IMG/VR virus record: IMGVR_UViG_3300025164_000339
Coordinates: 1 to 29,267 of that record
DNA: 29,267 bases
Strand: one strand, 5' to 3'
From: a virus
Part shown: in pieces, positions 1 to 19,951 of the stretch
How positions within the stretch are numbered: position 1 is the first letter of the stretch
Layout: every line of letters starts with the position of its first letter
The notes under the pieces: model-generated
What the model saw: only the letters and a program-made list of their open reading frames with translations
Database searches by the model: none
Told to the model about the DNA's origin: nothing
Translations under genes and position numbers: made by a program

Positions 1-99
1 CGATGGCATTTTCGTTGAGATGATTCGCGATCGGCAGCTTGCAGATCTCGTCGACTGAGAGATCCGGGTACGGGTTGCTCGCGCGGTGCGAAGCATCCT
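1..99. repeat. Terminal direct repeat, left copy
   Basis: Bases 1-99 are identical to bases 29169-29267. The methyltransferase gene reads through the join in frame when one copy is removed, so the simplest reading is a circular sequence opened at an arbitrary point. A uniform overlap of 99 bases is also a common assembly k-mer length, so the repeat itself is probably an assembly overlap and not a biological terminal repeat. Confidence 0.95.
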
Positions 100-766
100 T
101 GGCCCGGCTCTGGTAGGGCCAGGGTGGATCGATGACCAGCACGTCGAAGGTACCGGCGGGCGCCGGCAATGGCTGAGTGCTCAGGATCTTCGCAACCCTC
201 CGCTTCTCGAGCTCCTTGTGGGCGCCGTTGATCTTCCCGGTCCTGTCCATCTGCGAGACGAGATCCTCGAAGGCTTCAGGATCTTCCTCGGCCGCCCGGA
301 CTACGGCCAGCGCTCGCCGGTAGCCTCTCGCCCCGCCAAAGCCCGCCTTCTTGGCGGCAATGGTTAGCGTTCGGCGTTCCTCAGGATTGTCGGGTACTTG
401 CGACTTAGTGGCATTTGCCACTAAGTCCGTCCTCTCCCCTTGCCGCTTGCCGATCTCTGCCGCCACCGTCTCGGCGATCGCCACCCGCTCGCTGGCGGTG
501 AAGTTCTTGCGGATATCGTTCTCGGCGAGCTCGCCGTCGACGATCGAGGCAATCTTGATGACGCGCGCCTCGATCGTCTCCCAGCCGGCCATTCGCGCGG
601 CCTCGAGACGGCGCTCACCGAATATCAGCGTGTGATCGGGCGTGATCCCAATCGGCTGCAAGAGCCCCAGCTCCTCGAGGCTACTCTTGAGTGACTCGAG
701 GTCGCCGAGATCATTTCGGTGGCGCTCCCCCATGCGGACTGCTTGCAAATCGATCTTCACGGTCAC
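1..766 (-). CDS. ParB-like domain / MT-A70 DNA methyltransferase fusion (5' part)
   Basis: Probable adenine-N6 DNA methyltransferase with an N-terminal ParB/sulfiredoxin-like nuclease-fold domain. The gene starts at GTG 766, overlaps the RuvC-like stop by GTGA, and has GGAGG 5 bases upstream. It runs off base 1 and continues at 29168-28819, giving 371 aa in the circle. Residues 3-75 are ParB-like, including GERR at 50-53 in a typical ParB box context. The middle (about 85-190) is helical. The MT-A70 catalytic motif DPPW lies at 213-216, followed by the WPYQS stretch. I translated the whole segment by hand and found no stop. Such fusions are known in phages and usually protect phage DNA from restriction or change its methylation. 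Target sequence unknown. A role in partition is unlikely because no ParA gene is present. Confidence 0.9.
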   Translation of the reverse strand, partial: MTVKIDLQAVRMGERHRNDLGDLESLKSSLEELGLLQPIGITPDHTLIFGERRLEAARMAGWETIEARVIKIASIVDGELAENDIRKNFTASERVAIAETVAAEIGKRQGERTDLVANATKSQVPDNPEERRTLTIAAKKAGFGGARGYRRALAVVRAAEEDPEAFEDLVSQMDRTGKINGAHKELEKRRVAKILSTQPLPAPAGTFDVLVIDPPWPYQSRAKDASHRASNPYPDLSVDEICKLPIANHLNENAI

Positions 767-1248
767 CCTTTCCTCCGCCCGTACTCCGCGAGCAGCAGCG
801 CCTCGGCGCGGCCGTCCTTCCGCCCGATCTCCGCCCCCGGGAACAGCCGCGAGGCCAGCTCGAGGCTCGCGCCCTTGTCCGCGCCCCGTGGTAGCCCCAT
901 GGCGCGCTTCCACGCGGCCGGCTCGGCCCACTCGAGCGGGATCGAGAGCGCCGCCAGGATGCCTGCGACCATGCCGGTCCCGTAGCCCAGCGAGTAGCAG
1001 CTCGAGACGCCCTGCCCGGGCATCGCGTGCTGGCGCTCCACGACGGCGCGCAGCTCGTCGCTCGGCTGCCGCATAAGGGTGACGCTGCGCAGCATCTCGG
1101 CGAGCTCGCCGACGAGGTACTCCCGCCGCCGGCCCTTTGGGCGGCGCTGGATCCAGATCGCCGGCATGTCGGCCAGCATGGCGGGCTCGCCGCGCCGCAG
1201 GACGGCGAGCCCTCCTCCCAGCCCCGGGTCGATGCCGAGGATCAGCAC
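763..1248 (-). CDS. RuvC-like Holliday junction resolvase
   Basis: Likely a Mg2+-dependent endonuclease of the RuvC/RNase H-like superfamily that cuts four-way and branched DNA made during phage recombination and replication. The 161-aa protein opens with the LILGIDPG motif (Asp7). It has an acidic residue in VVERQH (Glu71) and ends with KDGRAEALLLAEY (Asp145, Glu149), matching the usual spread of RuvC acidic residues. Length fits phage RuvC-like enzymes. The start is GTG at 1248, directly after the stop of the upstream 67-aa gene. The gene lies in the leftward early operon, whereas recE and recT are in the divergent rightward operon. Confidence 0.87.
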   Translation of the reverse strand: MLILGIDPGLGGGLAVLRRGEPAMLADMPAIWIQRRPKGRRREYLVGELAEMLRSVTLMRQPSDELRAVVERQHAMPGQGVSSCYSLGYGTGMVAGILAALSIPLEWAEPAAWKRAMGLPRGADKGASLELASRLFPGAEIGRKDGRAEALLLAEYGRRKG

Positions 1249-1452
1249 CTAGTTGTCCGGCGCCTCGGGCTCGCCCGTATCGGTCTCCCAAGCTGCCTGC
1301 TCGCGCACGCCCTCGAGGGCACGGGACAGCACCTGGATGCGCTGCTCTCCCGATGGCAGGTCATCGAGCGCCCGCTCGATGCGCCTCAGGGCGGAGAGCT
1401 CGGTGCGCAGTGCCTGCTCGGCTGCGCTCATCGGTCGTATTCGCTTGATCAT
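1249..1452 (-). CDS. Small hypothetical protein, helical
   Basis: Not recognised. The 67-aa product is highly charged and predicted helical over its first 50 residues, with a Leu/Arg-rich pattern (RTELSALRRIERALDDL) and an acidic tail ending EAPDN. The ATG at 1452 has a good AGGAGG ribosome site that also contains the end of the upstream zinc-ribbon gene, one base away. It sits between the zinc-ribbon gene and the RuvC-like resolvase, so an early role in DNA metabolism or regulation is plausible but unsupported by any motif. Confidence 0.7.
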   Translation of the reverse strand: MIKRIRPMSAAEQALRTELSALRRIERALDDLPSGEQRIQVLSRALEGVREQAAWETDTGEPEAPDN

Positions 1453-1453
1453 C

Positions 1454-1654
1454 TCATCCTCCTGTGTCGTGCTCCGGCTCGAGGCGCCGGATGATGCGCG
1501 CCCATCGCGCGGTGTCGGTCTGCACGTCGCGGATCAGCGCCTGTTGGCGACACGCCGTGCAGCGGTACATGTCGTCGGCGCCGTACCGGTACTGGCGTAC
1601 CAGCTCGTGTGCGTGGCACCACGGACACGGTCCTATCGGCGCCCGCCAGGTCAT
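1454..1654 (-). CDS. Small zinc-ribbon protein
   Basis: A 66-aa protein with two CxxC knuckles (CPWC near residue 10 and CTAC near residue 33), typical of a zinc ribbon. Such small phage proteins commonly bind DNA, RNA polymerase or another protein, but the exact partner cannot be read here. The ATG at 1654 overlaps the stop of the HTH regulator gene (ATGA), so the two are very likely translated together from one mRNA. The C-terminal half is basic and helical (WARIIRRLE). Confidence 0.75.
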   Translation of the reverse strand: MTWRAPIGPCPWCHAHELVRQYRYGADDMYRCTACRQQALIRDVQTDTARWARIIRRLEPEHDTGG

Positions 1655-1911
1655 CGCCCGCCCGCCCGCTCGCTGGCCGCCGAGGCGCGCAGGAGCGCCA
1701 GGGCCCGGCGGGTAGACGTCGTGAGCGGCAGGTCCTCTGCGCGCACCTCGCCGCGGGTCGCGCGCTCGATCGCCAGGGCGAGGGCCATGGAGGCGGTCCG
1801 CACCGGGACGGCCCCGATGAGGCGCGAGATCGTGCCCTGCGTGCAGCCGGCCAGGGTGGCGAGCTGCGTCTCGGTCATGCCCGCCCGGGCGAGGTAGCGG
1901 TCGAGCTGCAT
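1651..1911 (-). CDS. Small HTH transcription regulator, Cro/YdaS-like
   Basis: DNA-binding regulator of the XRE/Cro superfamily. The helix-turn-helix is visible at about residues 12-33 (MTETQLATLAGCTQGTISRL). The following AIERATRGEVRAEDL stretch resembles the end of the HTH domain in Cro- and YdaS-type proteins. The product is 86 aa from ATG 1911; an in-frame ATG at 1920 would add MGR but lies directly against the -10 box of the likely promoter, so 1911 is preferred. It faces the rightward recET operon across the control region and leads the leftward operon. There is no separate dimerisation or autocleavage domain like that of CI or LexA, so it looks more like a Cro-type switch protein than a full lysogeny repressor. 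Confidence 0.85.
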   Translation of the reverse strand: MQLDRYLARAGMTETQLATLAGCTQGTISRLIGAVPVRTASMALALAIERATRGEVRAEDLPLTTSTRRALALLRASAASERAGGR

Positions 1912-1920
1912 CCGGCCCAT

Positions 1921-1948
1921 ACTATGCCGGCCGGAGTGTGGCACGCAA
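1921..1948 (-). promoter_or_regulatory. Leftward sigma70-type promoter
   Basis: Reading leftward, TTGCGT (1948-1943) is followed after 16 bases by CATAGT (1926-1921). Transcription should begin near 1914-1915, only a few bases before the ATG at 1911, so the regulator mRNA would be nearly leaderless. No Shine-Dalgarno sequence is seen upstream of that ATG, which agrees with this. Confidence 0.55.
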
Positions 1949-1955
1949 GGAGAGC

Positions 1956-1971
1956 CGAAAATATATTTTCG
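1956..1971. promoter_or_regulatory. Perfect 16-bp AT-rich palindrome, operator or shared UP element
   Basis: The sequence CGAAAATATATTTTCG is a perfect palindrome in a GC-rich genome. It lies exactly 7 bp from the -35 box of each divergent promoter (gaps 1949-1955 and 1972-1978), so its centre at 1963.5 is the symmetry centre of the region. Its core AAATATATTTT fits the AAAWWTWTTTT pattern known for UP elements bound by the RNA polymerase alpha subunit. It could also be an operator for the neighbouring HTH regulator. Confidence 0.6.
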
Positions 1972-1978
1972 CCGGCCC

Positions 1979-2006
1979 TTGACGGCGCCATGCCAGGCGG
2001 TATACT
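1979..2006 (+). promoter_or_regulatory. Rightward sigma70-type promoter for the recombination operon
   Basis: TTGACG (1979-1984) and TATACT (2001-2006) are separated by 16 bp, each one base from consensus. Transcription would start near 2013, giving a leader of about 34 nt before the ATG at 2047. This is the best promoter seen in the window and it precedes the recET operon. Confidence 0.75.
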
Positions 2007-2046
2007 CCCCTGCATCACGCGCACACTGCGCACCACGGGAGACATC

Positions 2047-2277
2047 ATGCACTGCGAGATCTGCGCTGACCGGATCGGGCCGCGCCTCGAGCGCGTGCTG
2101 CTAGTGCAGACGGCCGACGTGTACACCGATGCCGACGGGCACAGCGATCTGGACTATCTCGGGCCGCTCTCGCGCCGCGTCGTGTGCGGCACGTGCGCGG
2201 GCGATCTGATGATCGCATTGGAGCGCGCACGGGAAGCTCGCGCACAATCGGCGGTCGTCGCAGAGGTGACGCGATGA
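2047..2277 (+). CDS. Small Cys-rich early protein
   Basis: A 76-aa protein, first gene of the rightward operon. It carries CEIC at residues 3-6 and CGTC near residue 50, so the two knuckles could bind one zinc ion as a treble-clef or ribbon-like fold. Between them is an acidic stretch (VYTDADGHSDLDYLG). The ATG at 2047 is preceded by GGGAG at 5 bases. A longer reading frame extends upstream but would cross the promoter, so 2047 is preferred. The stop overlaps the next start (ATGA). Function is not recognised; its place before the exonuclease suggests an early DNA or host-takeover role. Confidence 0.72.
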   Translation: MHCEICADRIGPRLERVLLVQTADVYTDADGHSDLDYLGPLSRRVVCGTCAGDLMIALERAREARAQSAVVAEVTR

Positions 2278-3122
2278 TCGAGCCAGGCCTGCATCTCGCC
2301 CTCTCGCGCGATGGGTACGAGCAGATCGACGCGCCCAACATCTCGAGGCTCAAGCACCTGCGGCGCTCGCCCGCGCATGCGCGCCACGCGCTGCTCCACC
2401 CGGAGCCGCCGACGCAGGCGCAGGAGCTCGGACAGGCCGTGCACCTCGCGGTCCTCGAGCGCGACCGCTGGGAGCACGAGTACATCGCGGCGCCGCCATG
2501 CGATCGGCGGACCAAGGAGGGCAAGGCGATCTGGGCGGATCTCGAGGCTCGGGCCGAGGGCCGGACGATCCTGCGCGAGGCGGAGTACGAGCTGTGCGCC
2601 GACCTCGCTGCGGCGGTCTGGTCGCATCCGGTCGCGGCGGAGATCCTCAGGGGCAAGGGGGTCAACGAAGCGTCGCTCATCTGGCGGGAGGGCGAGGGGA
2701 TGGCCAAGTGCAGGCTCGATAGCCTGCGGATGATCGCCGGGCGCGCCTGCGCGATCGACCTCAAGACGACGGTGGACGCGAGCCCCAAGGGCTTCGCCCG
2801 CGAGATCGCCAGGATGGACTACCACGCGCAGGCCGGCTGGTACACGCTCGGCCTCGAGCGCGTCTTCGGCGCGCCGCACCGCTGGCTCTGGATCGCCGTC
2901 GAGAAGGAGCCGCCCTACGCCGTCGCGGTGTACGAGCTGGCGCACGATGACCTGATGCTCGGGCGCGAGACGGCGCTGCGCTGGCTCGAGCAGTGGCGCG
3001 CGTGCGAGCGCTCGGGCATCTGGCCCGGGTACAGCGACGCGATCCAGTCGATCCAGCTGCCCGCGTGGGCGCGGGCGAGCGAACCCTACACGGAGGACTC
3101 AAGCCATGTCGTCGCCTTCTGA
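2274..3122 (+). CDS. RecE-type PD-(D/E)XK exonuclease
   Basis: Likely 5'-3' double-strand DNA exonuclease of the RecE/exonuclease VIII family that makes 3' single-strand tails for the RecT annealase encoded next. The 282-aa product has the N-terminal YEQIDAPNISRLK pattern, GQAVHLAVLE (His57), NEASLIW (Glu132), RLDSL (Asp149), IDLKTT (Asp162, Lys164) and YHAQAGWY (Gln186). Together these form the expected PD-(D/E)XK active site. The ATG at 2274 overlaps the upstream stop and has GAGGTG in front; the open frame to 2184 is out of register with any ribosome site. Length matches the stand-alone nuclease domain and not the long E. coli RecE. Confidence 0.9.
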   Translation: MIEPGLHLALSRDGYEQIDAPNISRLKHLRRSPAHARHALLHPEPPTQAQELGQAVHLAVLERDRWEHEYIAAPPCDRRTKEGKAIWADLEARAEGRTILREAEYELCADLAAAVWSHPVAAEILRGKGVNEASLIWREGEGMAKCRLDSLRMIAGRACAIDLKTTVDASPKGFAREIARMDYHAQAGWYTLGLERVFGAPHRWLWIAVEKEPPYAVAVYELAHDDLMLGRETALRWLEQWRACERSGIWPGYSDAIQSIQLPAWARASEPYTEDSSHVVAF

Positions 3123-4254
3123 GCCTGCACCCACGCGCGCCATGGTCGCGATCGGTAACCGCGGCCTCGAGCTGCGCTCGATGGATGACCTCTACCGATT
3201 CTCACGTGCTGTGGTTGCGTCAGGCCTGGCCCCGCGCGGCATGGAGTCAGCGGAGAAAGTCATGGTCGCAGTGCAGACCGGGATGGAGGCTGGCCTCACG
3301 CCGATGCGCGCGCTCTCATCCGTGGTCGTGATCGGTGGCGTGCCGACCTGGAAAGGGGACGCGGCTCGAGCGCTCGTCGAGGCGAGCGGCGAGCTCAAGC
3401 AAGGGACGCACGTCCAGACTGGCACTCGTGCTGAGGGCGACCAGCTGACGGGCTGGTGCCGGACCTGGGCGCGCGACGCTACGGAGCCTGAAGAGACCAC
3501 GTTCGCAACCGCAGACGCGAAGCGGGCCGGCCTCTGGGGCAAGCAGGGGCCCTGGACGCAGTACCCGCAGCGGATGCTCCAGTACCGCGCCCTCGGCTTC
3601 CACCTGCGCGATCATTTCGGCGCCGTCCTGATGGGCCTGCGGACCGCCGAGGAGCAGCAGGACATGGTCGAGCTGCACCAGGTCACCTCGATGCCGGCTG
3701 CAGGGCCGGCGCAGGTCCCGGCCTGGGCGATGCACGCGACGGAGGTCGCGCAGCCCGCGCCTCTGGATGCTGTGGGGGCCGACGGCTCCGCTCCCAACCC
3801 CATCATCTGGGCGAGCACGGGAGCGGAGCTCGAGGGGGCTCCGGATCCGGACCTCGGCACGTCCCTCGCCGAGGAGGACGCGGGGGGCGATCTCCCTCCC
3901 CCCAGCGTCGATCCGGATCCGGAGCCTGTCCCGCCGGCGCCGGCCGAGGATCACGGCGGCGCGTTCGGGGACCGCTATGCGCCCTCACCGGCGCCTGTCG
4001 AGCCGCCCCGCCGCCCGCGCGCCATGGCCAAGGTCCAGTTCGCGGCGCCCGAGCCGGCCGTCCCGGACCCGGCACGCTCGATCGGGCCCGATGAGCAGGC
4101 CGCGATCTGGGCCGTGGTCCGCGCGCGTTACCAGGTCAAGTCCGAGGCCACCGCAGTCCTGGCGCGGGTCCTGGGCAAGCACGGCTGCCGGCGGACCGCG
4201 GAGGTCACGCACCGGCAGCTCGATGCTGTCCTCAAGACGGCGAGGACGATCTGA
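3106..4254 (+). CDS. recT: RecT-family single-strand annealing protein
   Basis: Probable RecT-type annealase that coats single strands made by the exonuclease and pairs them with homologous DNA. The first 200 residues hold family-like blocks: LYRFSRAVVASGL, GMEAGLTPMRALSSV, VVIGGVPTWKGDAARALV, a central GWCRTW, and DAKRAGLWGKQGPWTQYPQRMLQYRALGFHLRD. Residues about 210-315 form a Pro/Ala/acidic linker, unusually long, followed by a basic C-terminal domain (about 320-382) ending in HRQLDAVLKTART, perhaps a DNA- or protein-binding module. The ATG at 3106 overlaps the exonuclease gene by 17 bases and has GGAGGA upstream, so translation is coupled. The 382-aa length exceeds that of a minimal RecT because of this extension. 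Confidence 0.88.
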   Translation: MSSPSEPAPTRAMVAIGNRGLELRSMDDLYRFSRAVVASGLAPRGMESAEKVMVAVQTGMEAGLTPMRALSSVVVIGGVPTWKGDAARALVEASGELKQGTHVQTGTRAEGDQLTGWCRTWARDATEPEETTFATADAKRAGLWGKQGPWTQYPQRMLQYRALGFHLRDHFGAVLMGLRTAEEQQDMVELHQVTSMPAAGPAQVPAWAMHATEVAQPAPLDAVGADGSAPNPIIWASTGAELEGAPDPDLGTSLAEEDAGGDLPPPSVDPDPEPVPPAPAEDHGGAFGDRYAPSPAPVEPPRRPRAMAKVQFAAPEPAVPDPARSIGPDEQAAIWAVVRARYQVKSEATAVLARVLGKHGCRRTAEVTHRQLDAVLKTARTI

Positions 4255-4985
4255 TGAGCATCCTGGCTCTTGCACCACTCCCGACCGAGAAGTTCGAGGC
4301 GCCCGTCGGCGCGCTCGAGCTGCGCGCGACCGAGCTCGAGGTGATCGACCAAGGATCGCTGGAGCTCGCCGCGGCGATGCGAGCCGAGATCAAGGGCTGG
4401 CTCGAGGCGATCGAGGCGGACTGCGGCCCCACGGTCCGGCGCGCGCACGAGCTGCACAAGGACCTGGTCGGGCGCCGCAAGCGGCTCGAGCAACCCTTCC
4501 TCGAGGTCGAGGCCGAGCTCAAGGCGAAGTGCGACCGCTACGTCGCCGAGCAGCGGCGCATCGCTGCGCAGCGGGCAGCCGAAGAGGAGGTCAAGGCGAG
4601 AGCCGCGCATGCAGCCGCGGAGGCTGCGGCCCGTGCAGCTCGCGCGGAGGCCGAGGCCGAGGCGACTGCCCTCGCAGCGGCCGGTGAGGCCGAGCTCGCC
4701 GACGTCGTCCAGGAGCAGGCACAGCAGATCGTGCCGCCCCCACCGCCCTCGCCGGCGCCTCCGCCCCCGCCGCCGCGTGCCGCCGGGCTCGCCGTGCGCG
4801 AGGTCTGGCGAGCCGAAGTCGAGGACCTGCAGGCGTTCCTGGTCGGCGTGATCGAGGGCACGATCCCGCGCGAGGCGATCGCGGTCAACACGACCTGGCT
4901 GCGCGAGCAGGCGACCCGGCACAAGGCCGAGCTGCGGCTGCCCGGCGTGCGCGTCTGGTCCGAGACGTCCACGGGACGGCGCTGA
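4254..4985 (+). CDS. Coiled-coil recombination-operon protein
   Basis: Function unknown. The 243-aa protein has a helical N-terminal part (residues 20-85) and an Ala/Glu/Arg-rich coiled coil (about 85-150). A proline hinge of two PPPPP-type runs follows (about 158-175), then a compact C-terminal domain with W-A-E-V-D-L-x-A-F-L near its start and LPGVRVWSE near its end. Proteins of this plan often follow recT in GC-rich phages, so it may scaffold or regulate the exonuclease/annealase pair; this is inference from position. The ATG overlaps the recT stop as TGATG. It is not an SSB: no OB-fold pattern or acidic C-terminal tip is visible. Confidence 0.72.
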   Translation: MSILALAPLPTEKFEAPVGALELRATELEVIDQGSLELAAAMRAEIKGWLEAIEADCGPTVRRAHELHKDLVGRRKRLEQPFLEVEAELKAKCDRYVAEQRRIAAQRAAEEEVKARAAHAAAEAAARAARAEAEAEATALAAAGEAELADVVQEQAQQIVPPPPPSPAPPPPPPRAAGLAVREVWRAEVEDLQAFLVGVIEGTIPREAIAVNTTWLREQATRHKAELRLPGVRVWSETSTGRR

Positions 4986-5245
4986 TGGGACGCCTCACGA
5001 TCCATGCCCTCGAGCGCGTCGAGCTCCGTGAGCGCGACGAGCCGCGCAATCCAGACCCGCTCTGGATCGAGCGCAGCGACGGTACCCGCGAGCGCCTCAC
5101 GCAACGGCATGACAGGGGCGGGGTGATGCTCTCGAGCCTGATGATCGCCGCGGTCTGGATCGTCGTGGCGTTCTGCTGCGGCGTGGTGCATGGCCGCGCG
5201 AACCCGATCGAGCCTGCGCGGGTGGCTGAGGTGAGGACGTGGTGA
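4985..5245 (+). CDS. Small single-pass membrane protein
   Basis: An 86-aa product with a charged N-terminal half (about residues 1-45) and one strong hydrophobic segment at about 48-70 (MLSSLMIAAVWIVVAFCCG), then a short polar tail. The start overlaps the previous stop as TGATG. A second start at the in-frame ATG 5126, after a G-rich stretch, would give a 39-aa membrane peptide; both forms may exist. No family is recognised. A small membrane protein at the end of an early operon could act in superinfection exclusion or host membrane change, but nothing here proves it. Confidence 0.6.
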   Translation: MGRLTIHALERVELRERDEPRNPDPLWIERSDGTRERLTQRHDRGGVMLSSLMIAAVWIVVAFCCGVVHGRANPIEPARVAEVRTW

Positions 5246-5255
5246 CCTCGGAGCC

Positions 5256-5459
5256 GTGACCTCGCCCGCTCCAGCCTTCGCGCCCTTGCGCGAGGTCTCG
5301 GCGCACCACGTCACCTACGGCACGCTCGAGGATTGGCTGGGCTGGCATCCATTCGATCGGGTGTACGGAGCGCAGCGTGCGTGCTCGGCATGTCGCACTG
5401 ATGCCAAGCGCCGCTATCGGATGAGACTCAAGGCAGCAGCTCAATTGCGTCATAACTAA
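5256..5459 (+). CDS. Small hypothetical protein with CxxC
   Basis: A 67-aa protein starting at GTG 5256. The C-terminal half is basic and contains CSAC followed by RTDAKRRYRMRLKAA, a pattern seen in small nucleic-acid-binding proteins with a half zinc knuckle. The GTG at 5241 can be excluded because it meets a stop after five codons. This is the last gene of the rightward operon; it overlaps the end of the convergent M15-like gene by 32 bases, so the two transcripts collide here. Function unknown. Confidence 0.6.
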   Translation: MTSPAPAFAPLREVSAHHVTYGTLEDWLGWHPFDRVYGAQRACSACRTDAKRRYRMRLKAAAQLRHN

Positions 5460-5853
5460 CTTGTAAGTGCAGGTGCAGCCCCGAGACCGAGTGCCACAGC
5501 GCGGATGGCTTGCCCCGGGGATACCGCCAGCCGCGGTTGATCGCCTCGGCGAGGCTGGGCCCGTAGGCCATCGCCGCGGCCATGTCCGCGCCTGCATCGG
5601 TCCCTGTGGCCGCCGGGACAGGTACGAGGTCCGCCCCACGGCAGGGCGTCGCCTCGTGCACGGAGCTCGGCGGAGCCGGCTTGCCGGCGCGCAGGTAGAT
5701 CTCCAGGGTGCGCGTCCTGGAGCGCCGCACTCCCGTCAGGCGCAGGTGGTAGCCGGCGAGGCCCGCGATGCGCACGGCGTCCGTGACGAGGGCCTGGAGC
5801 CTCCAGTCGGAGGCCTCGAGCTCGGTGCGCAGCAGATCGGACGCGATCAGCAT
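5428..5853 (-). CDS. Probable endolysin, M15-like peptidase
   Basis: Likely peptidoglycan peptidase (D-Ala-D-Ala or L-Ala-D-Glu carboxypeptidase-like, peptidase M15 fold) used for host lysis. The 141-aa protein has the zinc-site pattern SSVHEATPCRGADL (His66, Asp75) and a C-terminal SGLHLHLQV (His127, His129), as in small phage M15-like proteins. The usual catalytic Glu/Asp before the C-terminal His pair is not obvious, so activity is uncertain. It is the last gene of the late operon and follows the membrane/coiled-coil gene with a TGATG overlap, a normal place for lysis genes. No signal peptide is seen, so it would need a holin to reach the wall. Confidence 0.65.
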   Translation of the reverse strand: MLIASDLLRTELEASDWRLQALVTDAVRIAGLAGYHLRLTGVRRSRTRTLEIYLRAGKPAPPSSVHEATPCRGADLVPVPAATGTDAGADMAAAMAYGPSLAEAINRGWRYPRGKPSALWHSVSGLHLHLQVSYDAIELLP

Positions 5854-6188
5854 CAGGGCCAGCGCAGGAGTAGGACTTCGGTGCGTTCGTCCAGCGCTGC
5901 GAGGTGCTGCCCGTGTTCGACAAGCGTGTCACGCTGCCGGCCGAGCTCGAGCTCGACGCGCTGGAAGCCACCCCGGACGTCCCGATTGAGCTGCTGAATC
6001 GCGGCGCGAGCCGGGGCGTCCTCCTCCTGCTCGTGGCGCGCGAGTCGAGCGGAGAGATCGAGCAGCGGCTGGCGGAGCCGGTGCAGGCAGTAGGTCAAGC
6101 CAGCCACGGCCGTGCTGGAGAGGATCGCGATCACCTCCGCCGCGTGGCGCAGATCGGCCCAGCTCGCAGGGGGCTCCGGGATCGGCAT
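5853..6188 (-). CDS. Membrane-anchored coiled-coil protein, DUF2730-like or lysis accessory
   Basis: A 111-aa protein with an N-terminal membrane segment at about residues 17-36 (AEVIAILSSTAVAGLTY) and a long amphipathic coiled coil from about 40 to 105. This plan resembles the Mu-type DUF2730 proteins and some spanin or holin-associated proteins. It sits between the tail-tip gene and the M15-like lysin, with TGATG overlaps on both sides, so a lysis role (holin partner or inner-membrane spanin) is reasonable. No lipobox or outer-membrane partner is visible, so spanin status is not supported. Confidence 0.65.
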   Translation of the reverse strand: MPIPEPPASWADLRHAAEVIAILSSTAVAGLTYCLHRLRQPLLDLSARLARHEQEEDAPARAAIQQLNRDVRGGFQRVELELGRQRDTLVEHGQHLAALDERTEVLLLRWP

Positions 6189-9100
6189 CAGACGGCTACC
6201 TCCTGCACGACCAGGTCCGCGGACCGCACGTCGAAATCACGCCTCACCCCGATGAGCCGCACCGTCAGCGTCGAGGCGTCGAGCTCGGCCGGCAGCGTGA
6301 GCTGCACCAGGTCTCCGATCTCGAGCGGGTAGCTGTCCGCCGCGGGCACTCCGAGCAGCTCGAAGAGCCTGCCAGGCGCCAGGCGCGCGGCGCCCAGGAT
6401 GGCTGCGACCTCCTCGGCCGTGGCCGCGTCGTAGATCGCGGGCAGGATGACGGGATCCCCGAGGAGCGTGCCTCTACGTGCCGCCGCAGCCGGATCGCTC
6501 GCAGCCACGAGTCCCTGCCAGGCGCGCTCCGCGAGCTGCCCGCGAGTCGCCCTGTGGGCGTGCCAGCGGTAGAGCAGATCCAGCTCCGTGGGGGGCCGAT
6601 CCTCGGCCGGCACCTCGACGATCCCCTCCCAGGCGCTCAGGACGAGCGTCGCTGCAGGCCATGTCCCGTCCGCTTCGGCCGCCCAGCAGCCCCAGATGGC
6701 GCCGCCCAAGCGATCGAGCGGGAAGATGCTGGCCCGCATCGACACGCCGAGGCGCTCGACCACGGAGCCGAAGTCCGATCCCAGCGCGCGCAGGTCGGCC
6801 CCGAAGACGTCCGCTCCGAGGTGCGTCGCCAGAGCACCGGCGAGCGTGGCGTCGATCTGCTGCGGCGGCTGGACCAGCTCCTCGAACAGGTAGCGGAGCA
6901 CGTCCGGTCCGGCCTCGATCAGCGTATCGGGCGCCGCGCTGTACGGATTGCCTGTGGTCTGGCCGCTCTCCAGCCAGTCGATCCACACGCCGACGGCTGC
7001 CTGGCCGTCGGTGTCCAGCTCGAGGCGCACGGTCCGCACGGCCAGGACCGTTGGGCCGCCGACGTCGACGGGATCGATCTCGAGGATCATCCACTGGCCA
7101 GCGACCAGATAGTCGACCGGCACGGGCAGCGTCCGTCGTGCCGATGGCTCCGTGGTGCCCGTCTCGATCTCGTCGGCAAAGGCAAGCTCGAGCCGCGAGA
7201 TCCGCGCAGGCGCATCTGCGCGCACGCGGAAACGGTAGACGGGCCCGGCGCTGCTCCAGTCACCGATGGTCGCGGCAGCGTTGCGCTGCGCGATGCCCGT
7301 GATCCGCGAGCGCATGACCATGTGGTCGACGCGCGTCTCGAAGCCATTTGTCGCAGCAGTTGGCGCGTGCGTGCGCACGTCGATGCGGGTCACGTTGGCG
7401 AGGTTGACGCCGCCGCCTGAGACCGTCGTCGGTACATCCTCTGGCGTCCACTTGAGACGCTTCCATGTCTCGAGCGCATCGAGTCCGTTGTCCAGGCCGT
7501 AGCTGTAGATCGAAAACGCGCCACCCGTCAGAAGGATCAGCATCAAGCTGCCCTTCCAGTTGTTGAGCGACCCGGGCAGCTCATCATCATGATCGATCAG
7601 CGTGTGGCCGTTCTCCAGCCAGACGTCAAACTCGAGCGTTGCGTTGGAGAGATCCAGGCTCGGGCTCTCGGTGATCAGGATGCCGTACTCATCGCCTGAC
7701 GTCTTGACGATCGAGGCGCACGCGGAGCCCTCGGATTGCACGCCGCCGCCCGGGAAGGTGAGCGTACCCCGCCACACAGCGACGCCATCGCCGGATGCCT
7801 CGAAGAGATGATCCTGCACGAGCGCGCCTTGCGCGGCCGCGAGCTTGGTGCTCGATGCGCCCTCGACCTTCTGGCCGGTGTCCTGGCTGCGCGTGATCCC
7901 GCTCTCGCTCCACTCCGCATCGGAGTCGAATGCGTACTCGGTCTGCCACTGCCAGGGCACGAGCGGCCCCTGCACGTCCGCGTAGAAGCGCAGCCCCCCG
8001 CCGACCGAGGCCGCCCGGAGCTGCACCTCGGTGCTGCCCGTCTCGGCCACCTGTGGCTGCGTGGTGATGCCGGGCAGCACGCGATTGATGCCGCCGCGCT
8101 GGATGTACCCGATCCGCAACAGGCCGCCTTCGGGATCCGTGTCGATCGTGAATCGGATCTCATCCGCGTCGCAATCGTGTGTAGGCTCGGCGAACGTCGC
8201 GAAGTATCCGCCGAGCCCCTCCGGCGTGGATTTCGGAACGTCGACGACGATGCTTGCGATCGTGGCGCCGGAGCGCCGTAGGCTCACCGTGACGTGCCCG
8301 ATCGTTGCGCTGCCCTCATAGCTGGCCGAGAAGTACACGGTCTGCATGATGATCCGCGCACTGCCGCCGCTGTGGGCGGTGAAGATGCCGCGGATCACAC
8401 AGCCATCATTGGCCCTGGGCAGGTCGCCCGAATCGGAGTACGGAGCGAAGCAGTCGTCAACCACGCCGTAGTAGAGCGAACCCGAGACGATCGACCGCGT
8501 GCTGGCGTAGTCGATATCGATCACGGGTTGCAGCGAATCGGGCGCGACCACGTCCGTGGAGCGCGTCGGCTGCTGCTGCACCTCGGCCGCGAGCAGTGCT
8601 GCGATCAGCGCATCGAGGTCCGCCGGCGCGAAGCGGACAGTCGCGAGCAGCCTGCCGGAGATCACGGTCGGATCGGATAGCTGGACGGCATAGGGCGTCG
8701 TGACGCGCAGCAGCTCGTCCGACCATGCGGAGCGCACGTAGAGCGCATCGACCGCGGAGAGTGGAGAGCTGCCGAGCACGTAGACCGCATCCCCGCCGAT
8801 GCGCTCGATGACCATGTCGCCCGGCTTGTGGGTCTTCGCCAGGCCCGTGACTCCCGTCAGCTGGTTCGCCGTCTTGCCCGAGTAGAGCGCGACCTCGCCT
8901 CCGCCGAGGGTCGCTGCGCCTGCAGATGGGAAGCCCGAGGCATCCGTCAGCTGCAGCGTCGTTGCGCCCGCGAGCGCTTCGACCGCGAGCGTGGTGCGGG
9001 CTCCGACCGTCCACGCGATGGCCTCCACGCGCTCGACCCGCCCGATCGGGAGGGGCAGCACGCGCCCGAGATCATCCGGATCGTTCGTGGTCGGATCGTT

Positions 9101-9646
9101 CGCGGTGAGCCACGGCATCGCCGGCAGCTCGACCTCGAGGCGCAGCTCGATCTCCTCGCCCAGGCGTAGCACGGCCTCGACCCGGCCGACGAAGAGCGGC
9201 ACGACGGCCGCCTCGGCTCCGATCCTCTGCCAGTCCAGCACTTCGGACGGCGCCTCGAGCAGCAGCTCACCGATCTCCACGCGCATGCCAAGGAGATCAC
9301 GGGCGCCTGACTGCGTCAGGTAGGGCGCCACGGCGCCGAGCTCCGTATCCCAGCCGCGCAGGATGATCGTGCACTGCCGGCGGAGCGCGCCGCCGAGCCC
9401 GCCCAGGGTCAGCTCGGGGATCGGTACGTGCCCGATGCGATCCACCTGCGGCATGCCCGAGACCAGAAGCGGCCAGAACTCGCGCTCCGCGCCCCAGGTC
9501 GCCGTGCGCCAGGTGCTCGAGATCCAGGTGTCGATCGGATCGGCCAGCGTGCGCGCATCCGAATAGGTCGTGAGGCGCGCGAGAAGCACCGGGAAGATCA
9601 CGCCTCGTGCCGCGAGCGCCGCCTCGCGGTCCGCCAGCGCTCGCAT
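6188..9646 (-). CDS. Large tail-tip/hub protein with inserted beta-sandwich domains
   Basis: The largest gene: 1152 aa from ATG 9646, which has GAGG 7 bases upstream; a GTG at 9649 would add one residue. The N-terminal 270 residues and the C-terminal 230 residues look like the two halves of a tail hub. The end has the pattern PLEIGDLVQLTLPAELD, then V-x-L-I-G-V-x-x-D-F-D and VVQEVAV, typical of hub proteins. Between them (about 370-930) lie several Gly/Ser/Thr-rich beta-sandwich segments with aromatic and acidic residues, like carbohydrate-binding jelly-roll modules. Likely roles are closing the tail tube and binding the host surface. It follows the 270-aa tail gene after tape measure, as expected for tail-tip genes. 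Part of the middle looks less GC-rich than the flanks. Confidence 0.75.
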   Translation of the reverse strand: MRALADREAALAARGVIFPVLLARLTTYSDARTLADPIDTWISSTWRTATWGAEREFWPLLVSGMPQVDRIGHVPIPELTLGGLGGALRRQCTIILRGWDTELGAVAPYLTQSGARDLLGMRVEIGELLLEAPSEVLDWQRIGAEAAVVPLFVGRVEAVLRLGEEIELRLEVELPAMPWLTANDPTTNDPDDLGRVLPLPIGRVERVEAIAWTVGARTTLAVEALAGATTLQLTDASGFPSAGAATLGGGEVALYSGKTANQLTGVTGLAKTHKPGDMVIERIGGDAVYVLGSSPLSAVDALYVRSAWSDELLRVTTPYAVQLSDPTVISGRLLATVRFAPADLDALIAALLAAEVQQQPTRSTDVVAPDSLQPVIDIDYASTRSIVSGSLYYGVVDDCFAPYSDSGDLPRANDGCVIRGIFTAHSGGSARIIMQTVYFSASYEGSATIGHVTVSLRRSGATIASIVVDVPKSTPEGLGGYFATFAEPTHDCDADEIRFTIDTDPEGGLLRIGYIQRGGINRVLPGITTQPQVAETGSTEVQLRAASVGGGLRFYADVQGPLVPWQWQTEYAFDSDAEWSESGITRSQDTGQKVEGASSTKLAAAQGALVQDHLFEASGDGVAVWRGTLTFPGGGVQSEGSACASIVKTSGDEYGILITESPSLDLSNATLEFDVWLENGHTLIDHDDELPGSLNNWKGSLMLILLTGGAFSIYSYGLDNGLDALETWKRLKWTPEDVPTTVSGGGVNLANVTRIDVRTHAPTAATNGFETRVDHMVMRSRITGIAQRNAAATIGDWSSAGPVYRFRVRADAPARISRLELAFADEIETGTTEPSARRTLPVPVDYLVAGQWMILEIDPVDVGGPTVLAVRTVRLELDTDGQAAVGVWIDWLESGQTTGNPYSAAPDTLIEAGPDVLRYLFEELVQPPQQIDATLAGALATHLGADVFGADLRALGSDFGSVVERLGVSMRASIFPLDRLGGAIWGCWAAEADGTWPAATLVLSAWEGIVEVPAEDRPPTELDLLYRWHAHRATRGQLAERAWQGLVAASDPAAAARRGTLLGDPVILPAIYDAATAEEVAAILGAARLAPGRLFELLGVPAADSYPLEIGDLVQLTLPAELDASTLTVRLIGVRRDFDVRSADLVVQEVAV

Positions 9647-10458
9647 CACAGTGCCTCGAGCAGCGACACGTCCGCGGAGTAGGAGAGCCCCGAGCTGCGC
9701 GGCGCGCGCGCTTCCTGCTCCACCGTCACCTCCGCCCAGTAGGCCACGGGCGGGGGCGGGCTCGCATCATCGCCGGGCGGATCGACGTAGACGATCCCCA
9801 TGCGCGCAGCCAGGGCGAGCTCGGAGAAGAGCGTCAGGTCACCGGCCGGCAAGTCGACGCGCTCGAAGCGCCAGACGACCCTGCGCAGCGCTGGGCGCGC
9901 GACGAGGAAGACGTCGCGCTCGCGCGTCTCGGTGCGCACGAGATTCGGGCTCGCGGTGTCGAGCCACGGCGTCGATGGCCCGCGTTGCGGCGTGCGTGTC
10001 TGGGAGACGAAGATCTCGCCGAGCTCGGGCTGAGCGGAGAGCGTCTTGAGGACAAGCGCCAGGTAGCGATCGGTCACGGCGGTGAACGTCCGGCTCTGCT
10101 GGCCCGTGGTCGGAGTCCAGCTCTCGCGCAGCGTGCCCTCGGTCGGGCCGGTGAAGGCTGTGCCCTTTGAGCGGAGCTCGACGGTCGCGCAGGCGGTCGC
10201 GAGGTTGTGGCCCGCAGGGATGATCAGCCGGTCGAGCCCTGGGTGGCCCGCTCCGCCATCCCATGCCATCCAGGCATCGCCCGTCGCCAGGTTCAGGCGC
10301 ACGATCCGGCCGAGCTTGGAGTCCGCGATCCGTGCACGCGATGCGGCCGCCGTCGGGCCCGCCCCTACGCCAGAGGCGACCGGAGCTGTACCGATGATCG
10401 AGCCGACGACCGCGGCCGCGGAATGATGCAACAGGAAGCGAGGGCCGCGGTAGGCCAT
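9646..10458 (-). CDS. Minor tail protein, distal-tail position
   Basis: A 270-aa protein directly after tape measure, with TGATG overlap, so by siphovirus gene order it should be a distal-tail or baseplate-like component linking the tube to the tip protein. The composition is beta-rich (for example TFTAVTDRYLALVLKTL and VVWRFERVDLP). The first 40 residues are Ala/Gly-rich and could be flexible. There is no clear catalytic motif. Assignment rests on position and general character, since I do not recognise the family from sequence alone. Confidence 0.65.
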   Translation of the reverse strand: MAYRGPRFLLHHSAAAVVGSIIGTAPVASGVGAGPTAAASRARIADSKLGRIVRLNLATGDAWMAWDGGAGHPGLDRLIIPAGHNLATACATVELRSKGTAFTGPTEGTLRESWTPTTGQQSRTFTAVTDRYLALVLKTLSAQPELGEIFVSQTRTPQRGPSTPWLDTASPNLVRTETRERDVFLVARPALRRVVWRFERVDLPAGDLTLFSELALAARMGIVYVDPPGDDASPPPPVAYWAEVTVEQEARAPRSSGLSYSADVSLLEAL

Positions 10459-12011
10459 CAGTGCAGCGCCGAGTACAGCCCAGGCTCTCGCGTCAGGCGC
10501 GAGCCGCCGCGGAAGACGACGCGCGTCCCTCCGAGTACGAGACGACCGCCTCCAGCTGTCGCCGCATCGACGGCAGCTGCACGCCCCTGCTCACGCGCGA
10601 TCCGGTCGAAGTCGCGGGAGCTGAAGACGGCGACCTGCGCCATCTGTGCGCTCGCGATCGCGGCAGCCTCGGACAGCCGGAGCAACGATGCCGTGTTCGC
10701 GTCGAGTACGCCGCCCTGGCGCTCGAGCTCCGTCGAGCTCGTCCGTGTATTGACCGCGAAATTCGTGGCCTGTTGGGCAGAGAGCGCGAGAGCCTCCGCG
10801 TAGGCGGTGACGCTGATCTTGCCGTCCCGGTAGAGCTGCTCGATGCGCTCCAGGCCGCCCGCCTGCTCGAGGATCTGAGCGACCAGGACCGCCTGCGCCC
10901 TGGCGAATGCCTCAGAGTTGCGGGCACCGCCGGCGAAGATGGCATCGAGCCGCTCGAGCCGCGTGCTCAGCGTATCGAGCTCGATCGCCGTGCCCGCTGC
11001 GGTGAGTCCGAACTCCTTGAGCAGCGCGACTCGCTCGGCCTCTGCCTGCTGCTGGGCGAGCGCGGCGCGCAGCCGCTCCTCCTGGACTGCGCGCTCCTCG
11101 GTCGCCTGTGCCGCTTGACGCTGCGCCGCAGCGTACTCCACAGCATGCTCGGCGGCGATGGCTTGCTCCGTGCGGATGCCGAGGAGAATGTCGAGGAACT
11201 CCTTGAAACTCACGTTGTTGAACTGCGTGGCCTCGAGCTCGGTGCGCAGCCGGACATGCTCCTCGCGCGCTTCACGCTCGGCCTCGACCCAGCGAGTCAG
11301 CCCCGTGATCATCTGCTGCATCCAACCGCCCTGGCCGGCGCCAATCGCAAGAGCCACTTCGGCGCCCAGGTCCTTGAGGCTGGCCCCGAGCGTCCGGAAT
11401 GCACCGGCCGCGTTGTCGACGGATGCGGAAAGCTGGCCCTTGAATTGCTCGCCAATCACACGGATCGCTTCGCCCGAGCGCAGCGCCTCATCGGACAACT
11501 CGCCGAGAGATGCGTTGAATCGCGAGATCGCCTCGACATTGCCCGTCAAGCTCGCACCCAGCCTGCGAACCGCCTCTTCATTCGAGATCCCGAGCGCCGC
11601 TGCCATGTCCAGCGCTGCCTGCGTCAGCTCGCGCGCGCCCTCGGCGTTGCGCGTGTACGCGACGGCGAGCGCCTGGAGCTCGAGCACGGTGGACTCGGAG
11701 ATGCCGGCCGTCCGGCGCACGCTCTCGGCGAATGCCTGCGCACCCTCGACCGCCGACGCGCTGCGTGCGCCCACGACCCCGAGCGCCGACGAGAAGCGGG
11801 CGAGCGCCTGCTCCTGGCCGACGAGCTCCTGGCCGATCTCGCGGAAGGCGAGCCCGGCGCCGGCGATCGCGGCGGAGAAGCTCGCCCACTTGGCGATCGC
11901 TCCGCCGACCTCGCCGGAGAGTGACCCGAGCGCGGACTCGACCTTGCGGATCTCCGGGCTCGCCTGGTTGTCCGCCTCGATCGTGACGGTGGCCTTGAGA
12001 TTGCGCGTCAT
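10458..12011 (-). CDS. Tail tape measure protein
   Basis: Tape measure protein that sets tail length and is ejected during infection. The 517-aa product is almost entirely helical, Ala/Glu/Gln/Arg-rich, with long heptad-like stretches (about residues 85-190 and 265-420), an opening KATVTIEADNQASPEI typical of small tape measures, and a hydrophobic segment at about 38-57. At about 0.15 nm per residue the tail would be roughly 75-80 nm. The ATG at 12011 has AGGGG upstream and begins 7 bases after the tail-tube stop. No tail-assembly chaperone gene lies between the two, which is unusual. Confidence 0.85.
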   Translation of the reverse strand: MTRNLKATVTIEADNQASPEIRKVESALGSLSGEVGGAIAKWASFSAAIAGAGLAFREIGQELVGQEQALARFSSALGVVGARSASAVEGAQAFAESVRRTAGISESTVLELQALAVAYTRNAEGARELTQAALDMAAALGISNEEAVRRLGASLTGNVEAISRFNASLGELSDEALRSGEAIRVIGEQFKGQLSASVDNAAGAFRTLGASLKDLGAEVALAIGAGQGGWMQQMITGLTRWVEAEREAREEHVRLRTELEATQFNNVSFKEFLDILLGIRTEQAIAAEHAVEYAAAQRQAAQATEERAVQEERLRAALAQQQAEAERVALLKEFGLTAAGTAIELDTLSTRLERLDAIFAGGARNSEAFARAQAVLVAQILEQAGGLERIEQLYRDGKISVTAYAEALALSAQQATNFAVNTRTSSTELERQGGVLDANTASLLRLSEAAAIASAQMAQVAVFSSRDFDRIAREQGRAAAVDAATAGGGRLVLGGTRVVFRGGSRLTREPGLYSALH

Positions 12012-12018
12012 GTCGCCC

Positions 12019-13077
12019 CTAGTAGAACTGCATCTGCAGCTCGTCGCCCTCGGCAGCGTCCATCACAGCGCGCCCCGTGATCGCCGGCGCGGCGCTCGCT
12101 CCGATCACGTCCTGCTTCACCGCGCGCAACTCGAGCTTGGGGAGCTTGACCGAGTAGCGGTTGGCGCGCACGCCGTTCGGCGTCTGCACCGTTCCGCCGA
12201 CAGCGAAGGTCATCCCCGTGAGCGCGACCGTCTTGAGCAGCGTCTCGATCTCGAAGTCGGGATCCGTGCTCTCTCCGTAGAGGGTGGCAGCCACGTTGAC
12301 CGTCCTCTCGCTCGATGCGGGCACCTCGCCGGAGACCGCATTCGAATCGGGCACCGTGTCGCTGGAGTTGTCGACGGTCACCTCGAGGCTCGAGTAACCA
12401 CGCGCGACCGCGCCAGCGCCCCAGACATGGCCGACGCTCTCGATCGTCGGAGGGCCAGCGAGATCCTGGTTGCCGTAGTCGAGCACCGTCGGGAATGTCT
12501 CAGCCGCCCGCGCGCTGAACGTGCCCGCCAGCTCGATCGTCACCAGACCGATCCCGCCCGGCGTGAAGCTCAGGGTCGGCACGCCGATGCAGTTGGTCCA
12601 GATCAGGCGATAGCCGCCCTTGTGCATGAGTTTGACGGTGCACGGCTTGATCGTGGCCAATCGGATCGACTGGCCGATGCCCGTCGGGCCCTCACCGGGA
12701 GCGCTTGCCGTCCAGATCAGACCGCATGCCTCCCAAAGAGCCCTGACCCCGAGATCCGCGACGAAGTCCGCGTCCGCTGGCGCACCGCCGATCGAGATGC
12801 GCGAGCCCGCGATCGGAACGGCGACGGTGAGTCCGTCGATCGTTGCGCGGAGGAGCGTCGCTGCCGTCTTCGAGAGCCCGACCGCAGCCGACTCCTGGAA
12901 CTCGCCCCCCATCGTGAAGTCGAGTCCGGTGCCCAGCGGCCCGACGCTCGCATCGAGCTTGATCAACCCATCTGCGATGTGAACCTCGCCGGGAGTCCCG
13001 TAGGTCATGGTCTCCGGCGTGCCGGGGACGGTCTCGGTCTTCGCCGTCAGCAGCAAGCCGTAGTTGTACTTGGCCAT
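12019..13077 (-). CDS. Major tail (tube) protein
   Basis: Probable tail-tube subunit. The 352-aa protein begins MAKYNYGLLLTAKTETVPGTPE, a pattern typical of tube proteins that start with a short strand and a VPGT turn. It is beta-rich throughout, with Gly/Thr/Val strands and an Ig-like or extra beta-domain possible around residues 215-300 (SSLEVTVDNSSDTVPD, VNVAATLYGES). The ATG at 13077 has GGGAGG just upstream. It lies immediately before tape measure and after the neck and completion genes, the standard siphovirus order. At 352 aa it is longer than the minimal tube fold, so a surface domain is likely. Confidence 0.82.
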   Translation of the reverse strand: MAKYNYGLLLTAKTETVPGTPETMTYGTPGEVHIADGLIKLDASVGPLGTGLDFTMGGEFQESAAVGLSKTAATLLRATIDGLTVAVPIAGSRISIGGAPADADFVADLGVRALWEACGLIWTASAPGEGPTGIGQSIRLATIKPCTVKLMHKGGYRLIWTNCIGVPTLSFTPGGIGLVTIELAGTFSARAAETFPTVLDYGNQDLAGPPTIESVGHVWGAGAVARGYSSLEVTVDNSSDTVPDSNAVSGEVPASSERTVNVAATLYGESTDPDFEIETLLKTVALTGMTFAVGGTVQTPNGVRANRYSVKLPKLELRAVKQDVIGASAAPAITGRAVMDAAEGDELQMQFY

Positions 13078-13086
13078 CTCGCCTCC

Positions 13087-13503
13087 CTACGTCAGCACGA
13101 CGAACCAGCTCGCGCTGGCGACGATCACGTTTCCGATGCGGGTGCGCTCCATCTCGCGCGGATGCGAGATGAGAGCGGAGACAGTGCCCATATCCGTCCA
13201 CCAGGGCGTGGAGAGCATCTCGACGAATGCCGGGCCGAGCACGGTCGCGAATGCGTTGTGCTCCGTGTTGATCGCCGGGATCCGGTAGGCGAGCACGATC
13301 AGAGCGGACGCGCCCCACAGCGCATCATTGGAGCTCGGGCGCGGGTGCAACATCGGCGTGACTGCGAGCGCATAACCTCGCTCTCCGGACGCTAGGGCAT
13401 TGCGCGAGTAATCGAACGCGCTCTCCATCGGCTGCCAGGATTGACTGCCCACGCCTGCCAGGGCCGCGTAGAGCTCGCCGTCGAAGTCGCTGAGCGTGCT
13501 CAC
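13087..13503 (-). CDS. Hypothetical tail protein before the tube gene
   Basis: A 138-aa protein starting at GTG 13503, overlapping the previous stop (GTGA). The sequence mixes aromatic and small residues (SQSWQPMESAFDYSRN, AYRIPAIN, MLSTPWWTDMGTVSALISHPREMERTRIG) and ends in a hydrophobic strand (VIVASASWFVVLT). No family is recognised. Between the tail-completion candidate and the tube gene, tail-terminator or stopper functions are expected, so one of these two adjacent genes probably does that job. Confidence 0.65.
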   Translation of the reverse strand: MSTLSDFDGELYAALAGVGSQSWQPMESAFDYSRNALASGERGYALAVTPMLHPRPSSNDALWGASALIVLAYRIPAINTEHNAFATVLGPAFVEMLSTPWWTDMGTVSALISHPREMERTRIGNVIVASASWFVVLT

Positions 13504-13919
13504 GTGATGACCCCGCCCTCGACCAGGAAGACCGCGACGCGCCGCGCGCGCGAGTCCGGCGCTGGATCGACCGAGATCCCGATCTCAGAGCAGCGCCAGC
13601 GGTCGAGCCAGCCTGGCACCTGGGTATCCACGATCTGCGAGAGCACAGCGCTGGAGAGATCGAGCATGTCATCCACGCTGACCCCGTCCGCCCAGAGGTG
13701 CACCTGGAGCGCGATCTCCTGCGTGGACTGGCCGAACGGTAGGGGTCCAGACGAGATCGAGAAGTCGACCAGGAATGCGTGCGGATACTCGGAGGGCGAG
13801 AGCTCGGAGCCGTCGCGGAACTGCCGCTCGACTCCGCGAGTGCCGGCCGGCAACGTCGGGACAGCCGCCCTCACGGCCGCCTCGATCTCGTCGACGATGG
13901 CGCGCGTGTCGATCGGCAT
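13500..13919 (-). CDS. Tail completion/terminator-like protein
   Basis: A 139-aa protein with an N-terminal helix (RAIVDEIEAAVRAAVP) and then alternating strands and helices, including FLVDFSISSGPLPFGQSTQEIALQVHLWAD and a closing RARRVAVFLVEGGVI strand. This helix-then-beta plan and the length fit tail-terminator or completion proteins that cap the tube at the head end. Gene order (after the neck protein, before the tube protein) agrees. The ATG at 13919 overlaps the upstream stop as TGATG. The exact subfamily is not identified. Confidence 0.65.
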   Translation of the reverse strand: MPIDTRAIVDEIEAAVRAAVPTLPAGTRGVERQFRDGSELSPSEYPHAFLVDFSISSGPLPFGQSTQEIALQVHLWADGVSVDDMLDLSSAVLSQIVDTQVPGWLDRWRCSEIGISVDPAPDSRARRVAVFLVEGGVIT

Positions 13920-14401
13920 CAGCTGCCCAGCTTCCAGTGGCGCCGCAGCTCGTCGATGAGCAGCGGCTCGAAGAGCCGCGACTCGGCATCAAGCGCCGGC
14001 GCGAGGAAGGCTCTACGCGGGTAGCGCCTGCGCCCGACGTTCAGGCCGTACTCATGGACGGCGCTGTAGATGAGATCCGAGCCAACCGTGATAGCGCGCG
14101 GGAAGCGCGTCTTGTCCATGCCGCGGTTCTGCGAGAGCGAGCGCCTGAGCTCGCCCGAGCGGCTGGTGAGCCGGGTCGGATGAGGCGGCGCATCGTGCAG
14201 CTTGCCGCGTCCGCCTCGAGGCCCGGGTGACCGGAAGCGCCCGCCTCGGATGATCTGCTGCTCGGCAGCATTGCGCAGGACGCGCAGCCCGGCGGCGACC
14301 AGGAAGCGCTGCACCGGCTGGCGCACCTGCTCCGGGCGGGACGCCAGCAGGAACGCGCGGAGCTCTGGAGAGACCCGCCAGACGATGCGCGCAGCAGGCA
14401 T
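13919..14401 (-). CDS. Neck protein, HK97 gp10/virion-morphogenesis-like
   Basis: A 160-aa protein with the hallmark late pattern of gp10-like neck proteins: LTSRSGELRRSLS, then AITVGSDLIYSAVHEYG, then YPRRAFLAPALD, followed by a C-terminal helix (FEPLLIDELRRHW). The N-terminus carries a helix with REQ/Arg-rich residues and a basic loop (RGGRFRSPGPRGGRGK). These proteins join the connector to the tail. The start overlaps the connector stop as TGATG. Position after the connector supports the call. Confidence 0.8.
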   Translation of the reverse strand: MPAARIVWRVSPELRAFLLASRPEQVRQPVQRFLVAAGLRVLRNAAEQQIIRGGRFRSPGPRGGRGKLHDAPPHPTRLTSRSGELRRSLSQNRGMDKTRFPRAITVGSDLIYSAVHEYGLNVGRRRYPRRAFLAPALDAESRLFEPLLIDELRRHWKLGS

Positions 14402-15663: not shown

Positions 15664-15687
15664 GGACTGCTCCCGCTACGCTCCCGT

Positions 15688-15903: not shown

Positions 15904-15910
15904 GTTCACC

Positions 15911-18565: not shown

Positions 18566-18581
18566 GTCTGTTCTCCCCGAT

Positions 18582-18614: not shown

Positions 18615-18629
18615 CCTCTCACCCCTGGA

Positions 18630-19949: not shown

Positions 19950-19951
19950 GG

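Follow-up and report, generated by a model that had tools for sequence, protein, structure and literature searches.

Genome organization and the divergent gene sets

The whole stretch of DNA analyzed (the window) comes from a virus of an environmental sample; it is a 29,267-bp contig with 69% GC, in which family searches recognized the head, portal, terminase and recombination genes of a phage. Positions 1-99 recur exactly and in direct orientation at 29169-29267. This terminal repeat of 99 bp makes it very probable that the record represents a complete phage genome of 29,168 bp that is circular (or circularly permuted). A single minus-strand frame runs across the contig ends (2-763 and 28819-29169), and family searches assigned to it a ParB-like domain fused to an MT-A70-like methyltransferase; in this joined reading, the 33 residues of the overlap are counted twice.

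The recognizable structural and packaging genes, together with adjoining long open frames, are on the minus strand. The accepted plus-strand genes extend from 2047 to 5459 and comprise a 76-aa protein with two CxxC pairs (2047-2277), for which family searches gave no significant match, a RecE/exonuclease VIII-like nuclease (2274-3122, Pfam DUF3799), a RecT-like annealing protein identified by family searches (3106-4254) and small genes. Both gene sets start divergently from the region 1912-2046. On the minus side, the transcript is led by an 86-aa Cro/YdaS-like helix-turn-helix (HTH) protein, P0001 (1651-1911), identified by family searches and by the alignment of its relatives. It is followed by a 66-aa protein (1454-1654) with a weak, sub-threshold similarity to zinc ribbons, and the same operon encodes a Holliday-junction resolvase (763-1248, phrog_1770, E = 3.8e-27).

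At their far ends, the plus and minus gene sets meet and overlap at 5428-5459, and no terminator-like site was found in a scan of positions 1-20000. Elsewhere in the genome, a 706-aa frame on the minus strand (20950-23070) matches a portal protein family, with a C-terminal end that matches head-morphogenesis families, and the GC content falls locally to 58% at 16001-16500, inside a 903-aa frame without a PHROGs match.

The palindrome, the A/T run and the two promoters

The divergent region contains a perfect 16-bp palindrome, CGAAAATATATTTTCG, at 1956-1971, which can be read directly from the sequence and is a candidate operator or UP-position element. As the original prediction had stated, it lies 7 bp from the hexamer TTGACG (1979-1984) on one side and 7 bp from the minus-strand hexamer TTGCGT (1948-1943) on the other. 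It is also a single copy in the window, where a search that tolerated up to 3 mismatches detected no further match. Palindromy was nevertheless rejected as the main signal, since palindromes of 16 bp are expected by chance in this window: 4 were observed, and 1.77 of at least 16 bp were expected from 200 order-1 Markov sequences.

The striking feature is not the palindrome but the 12-bp A/T run that it encloses, AAAATATATTTT (1958-1969). This run is an outlier in a genome of 69% GC, where the next longest run has 6 bp (one case) and is followed by 14 runs of 5. Genome simulations yielded runs of at least 12 in 3 of 300 cases at order 1 and in none of 300 at order 2 or of 300 at order 3, and a separate order-1 Markov set also gave 0 of 200. 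For an A/T run of the same composition, the probability of palindromy is p = 0.07; the two C-G pairs that flank it add a further factor of about 0.08, which brings the joint value to about 0.006. As palindromy given the run reaches only p of about 0.07, selection could have acted on the run alone. Without the palindrome, the intergenic DNA has 67% GC versus 69% in the genome.

On both strands, the run includes the distal core of UP elements, AAATATATTTT. Compared with the consensus AAAWWTWTTTT (PMC2412878), the agreement is 11/11 in each direction, as had been proposed, and this is the likeness to the UP elements of strong Escherichia coli promoters. The difference is that the proximal AAA is missing here (0/3 on both strands, 11/14 in all) between GC-rich flanks, and that one core would need to serve two opposite promoters. 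The full 22-nt UP consensus element directly abuts both -35 boxes. The UP-element zone is described as -60 to -40, and polymerase contacts with a single UP subsite have been reported (PMC2613000).

Regarding the promoters, the plus side, which precedes the recombination operon, combines the -35 box TTGACG with the -10 box TATACT (2001-2006) and matches 10 of the 12 consensus bases, a best score of at least 10 being reached by 1 of 5,000 random 75-mers. A ribosome-binding-site-like GGGAG (2037-2041) is visible in the sequence 5 nt before the ATG at 2047. On the minus side, the candidate -35 box TTGCGT (1943-1948, 3/6) and the candidate -10 box CATAGT (1921-1926, 4/6) are separated by a 16-bp spacer and together match 7/12. 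A score of at least 7 was found anywhere in 44 bp for 384 of 5,000 random sequences, while p is 0.00215 (20,000 sequences) when the position is restricted to the exact mirror image of the plus promoter. Two more minus-strand combinations equal 7/12, namely TTGCGT-18-TAGTAT, with TAGTAT at 1919-1924, and GTGCCA-17-TATGGG. The plus promoter thus appears convincing, and the minus promoter would be weak, with an uncertain -10 box. The idea of two mirror-image promoters with 16-bp spacers holds for the geometry, but the minus assignment is uncertain and the promoters are unequal, so that the support for a symmetry about the palindrome is moderate.

A two-hexamer scan of the whole window, run in two overlapping pieces, returned two sigma-70-like sites. 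The first is TTGACG-16-TATACT at 1979-2006, the best sigma-70 match reported for the window, and the second is a 9/12 match at 1938-1967, in which the palindrome serves as the -10 box. If transcription starts near 2013 on the plus strand and near 1914 on the minus strand, as predicted, the palindrome would occupy about -57 to -42 of both promoters. Besides, the 5' leader predicted for the plus transcript contains an inverted repeat, GCGCA-CAC-TGCGC (5-3-5, at 2019-2031), which is either a second operator or a product of chance; it was set aside as an alternative operator because, by a rough estimate, an inverted repeat of such size is likely to arise by chance.

The HTH protein, its relatives and the recurrence of the element

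The ATG at 1911 was taken as the start of P0001, as it aligns with the first methionine of the relatives; an ATG at 1920 would immediately follow the -10 box. The distance from the end of the candidate -10 box to the ATG at 1911 is 9 nt for CATAGT and 7 nt for TAGTAT. The P0001 mRNA is probably leaderless, since no ribosome-binding site is visible before this ATG and a start 6-10 nt past the -10 box would fall at about 1911-1914.

Family searches matched P0001 to PHROG 35, transcriptional repressor (E = 5e-6), and to the Pfam families YdaS_toxin (1.7e-4) and HTH_3 (0.0015), both below the curated cut-off. Judged by its sequence, P0001 is a small HTH protein of the Cro/CI superfamily and a distant relative of Cro and YdaS; its structure model is poor (mean pLDDT 62.9). 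It is the sole HTH_3 match in the window, just as each of the records L002-L004 has one HTH_3 match. Domain searches in these four records found no S24 peptidase, tyrosine integrase or resolvase. No CI repressor was found in the window, and the gene divergent from P0001 is that of the 76-aa CxxC protein. Taken together, the CI protein, the integrase and the several operators of a lambda-type CI/Cro lysogeny switch appear to be missing from the window.

The search with P0001 retrieved three distant relatives (47% identity over 56 residues; proteins P0006 and P0007, to which P0001 is 45-48% identical), and these are also located at an apparent divergent start. The phage records that match P0007 (37) carry the names Cro, YdaS, DicC, repressor or hypothetical protein. 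Twenty of these 37 regions were fetched and 17 were compared, after L039, L045 and L046 had been dropped, the HTH gene being unannotated there. In 13 of the 17 annotated relatives, the control region separates the HTH gene from a divergent neighbor that bears the name of a repressor or regulator, and in the other 4 this neighbor is hypothetical or otherwise named. The phage studied here departs from those 13, as its divergent neighbor is the CxxC protein ahead of the recombination genes. Moreover, some relatives have several operators in this region, for example HK639 with three ATAACnnnnGTTAT sites, whereas the window has one site that overlaps neither -35 box.

Scans with P0001, P0004, P0005, the capsid protein and the ParB/methyltransferase protein, together with one alignment, found no relative covering the control region that is closer than L002-L004; three distant loci from these scans and two loci from the capsid protein scan did not enter this comparison. 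L022-L024 carry a capsid protein that is 100% identical, but they are fragments outside the control region. The search with alignment A1 recovered the three P0001 relatives again plus one weak match (L030), which was left unused. A genome scan for relatives gave no match, nor did P0001 in phage and plasmid records. Three phage regions that encode a relative of exonuclease VIII (L019-L021) show a different gene order and were set aside.

The comparison of divergent regions took in L002 and L004 of the records L002-L004. In both, ATTGCGACAAT (2970-3003) overlaps the apparent -10 box (GACAAT) of the HTH promoter, and this box ends about 7 bp before the ATG, which suggests that the HTH mRNA may be leaderless there too. 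L002-L004 also have TAGT-N6-ACTA between the two -35 boxes. As an operator of the relatives, this motif was dropped, given that it is likely by chance in an A/T-rich stretch (rough estimate) and that its spacing is unlike that of the YdaS site.

The exact palindrome occurs at 14 loci in other viral contigs, in unrelated settings, and these were treated as chance because no comparable HTH-divergent setting was visible. A pattern search with the relaxed element CGAAA-W6-TTTCG, spaced by 7 bp from TTGAC, gave 11 loci.

A probable single operator and the competing explanations

Considering these data, the region most likely contains one operator of the Cro-like type, at a position that is also the UP zone of two divergent and unequal promoters. 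A good sigma-70-type promoter would direct transcription rightward into the genes for the CxxC protein, exonuclease VIII and RecT, and a weak leftward promoter just before the ATG at 1911 would yield a probably leaderless mRNA for P0001 and the genes behind it. The palindrome would be the single operator for a dimer of P0001, located in the zone of the alpha C-terminal domain of both promoters, and the bound dimer would displace the upstream alpha contact, so that both transcripts would go down (autoregulation and early shut-off). Lowering of both transcripts is the best-supported effect, because a dimer on 1956-1971 would spare both -35 boxes and cover both alpha-subunit zones. We infer here the start sites, the binding and dimerization of P0001, the repression and the use of the A/T run by the polymerase, and this complete reading is tentative, at somewhat less than an even chance. 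In its favor are the position of the palindrome midway between the promoters, its single copy, the unique A/T run and the adjacent Cro/YdaS-like HTH gene. Characterized Cro/YdaS members are described as binding palindromes of 16-18 bp between divergent promoters (PMC4488713, PMC8630535), and central A-tracts as increasing the affinity of the P22 and 434 repressors (PMC3317979).

The arrangement is close to known ones. In phage PY54, Cro is reported to bind one 16-bp palindrome, a UP-like sequence lies beside the cro promoter and leaderless mRNAs occur (PMC4488713). The PY54 cI/cro region thus shares with the present one a palindromic site of 16 bp (a candidate site here) that is alone in the genome and lies between divergent promoters, as well as a UP-like A/T-rich sequence at the cro promoter and a leaderless cro mRNA, which is a prediction here (PMC4488713). 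It differs in having a CI repressor and an operator beside the cI gene, while no CI was found here; in the present phage, the genes on the divergent side are those for recombination, and the A/T-rich element is the palindrome itself, which lies midway. In CP-933P, YdaS is described as binding 18-bp inverted repeats between divergent promoters, and the PaaR2/YdaS region resembles the present one in the YdaS-type HTH protein that leads its operon, the short divergent intergenic region and the leaderless regulator mRNA on one side, predicted in our case (PMC8630535). According to the same report, however, CP-933P has several 18-bp repeats, some of them over promoters, and two competing regulators, and its half-site GTTTAGTAA is unlike CGAAAATA here (PMC8630535). 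Lambda OR also combines divergent promoters with an operator (candidate here) for a Cro-like protein, but it has three promoter-overlapping operators and CI, neither of which was found in this region. The window provides an example of a probable Cro-like control region with a single operator, in a phage where CI and integrase were not detected.

The alternative that deserves most attention, although it is unlikely, is that the element is a UP element only. In this case, the alpha subunit would bind the A/T run and stimulate the plus promoter and perhaps the minus promoter as well, and palindromy would be a by-product of the nearly self-complementary core. The complete distal core on both strands and a consensus element adjacent to both -35 boxes fit this, the addition of one A/T base to a random UP core gives a palindrome in 12.7% of cases, and among the pattern matches CGAAA-W6-TTTCG precedes TTGACA, for example in L061 and L063. 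Nevertheless, the proximal AAA is absent, the flanks are GC-rich and the C-G end pairs are left unexplained, and the consensus is that of E. coli, so that the preference of the alpha subunit of the host may differ. Furthermore, the Kpn2I C-box has, like the present region, an A/T-rich UP-like segment upstream of a -35 box between divergent promoters that is the site of a small HTH protein (a candidate site here), and yet polymerase without the alpha C-terminal domain is reported to have transcribed equally well, so that the UP role was rejected there (PMC6237814). An HTH site of this type can therefore exist without UP activity, with the difference that the Kpn2I site overlaps the -35 box and the one here stops 7 bp short of both -35 boxes (PMC6237814). 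Distinctly less probable is a palindrome without any role of its own, an A/T-rich spacer upstream of promoters in a GC-rich genome that is symmetric by chance. That palindromes of this length are expected by chance and that the intergenic DNA remains slightly richer in A/T once the palindrome is left out would agree with it; an A/T run of at least 12, which arose in 3 of 900 simulated genomes (three orders) and here is placed at the functional spot, would not.

Other roles for a bound protein were also weighed. A dual action of the HTH dimer, like that of lambda CI at PRM, is very unlikely; it would activate one of the promoters, presumably the weak one of its own gene, and block the other. 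The usual activating position is -42, and the center of the palindrome, at about -49.5 from both starts, is displaced from it by about 7 bp; in addition, a site equidistant from the two starts provides no asymmetry. The argument for activation is that unequal promoters (10/12 and 7/12) share one site, and strong and weak divergent promoters with a shared site are the layout of other switches (PMC4207663). The least probable explanation, and a highly improbable one, makes the palindrome the site of another factor, for instance a host factor, or the ParB-like/methyltransferase protein (2-763) if the site is parS-like. The minus operon does encode a ParB-family protein, the HTH gene of the relative L041 is followed by a ParB-like gene, and parS sites are likewise 16-bp palindromes. 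Against this, the palindrome bears no evident resemblance to the known parS sequence, and it is a single site exactly between promoters.

Concerning the alternatives of the original prediction, one operator for the HTH protein or one UP element that activates both operons, the sequence and the position fit both, but activation of both is the weaker half. Simultaneous use of the promoters is doubtful, because polymerases starting about 99 bp apart would have upstream footprints that overlap on the A/T run. The two ideas could also be combined, in that one symmetric element would be the shared UP element of mirror-image promoters and the sole HTH operator, with polymerases that compete for it and a regulator that withdraws it from both, as a minimal early switch without CI. 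This appears rather improbable, and the literature searched returned no title on a UP element that is shared or bidirectional, which is not proof of absence. If it were true, one symmetric sequence would set the competition of two polymerases and a regulator, and this very compact divergent switch would be easy to test and reuse.

Finally, one of the relaxed-pattern loci (L065) has TTGAC at a distance of 7 bp on both sides of CGAAAAAATAATTTCG (12086-12125), in an unrelated phage contig of 37% GC. On its minus side, TTGACA-16-CAAAAT matches 10/12, and the rightward -10 box is weak. As a post hoc lead, this locus hints at a recurrence of the mirror geometry; its element adjoins a gene whose protein, judged by eye, resembles a small terminase.
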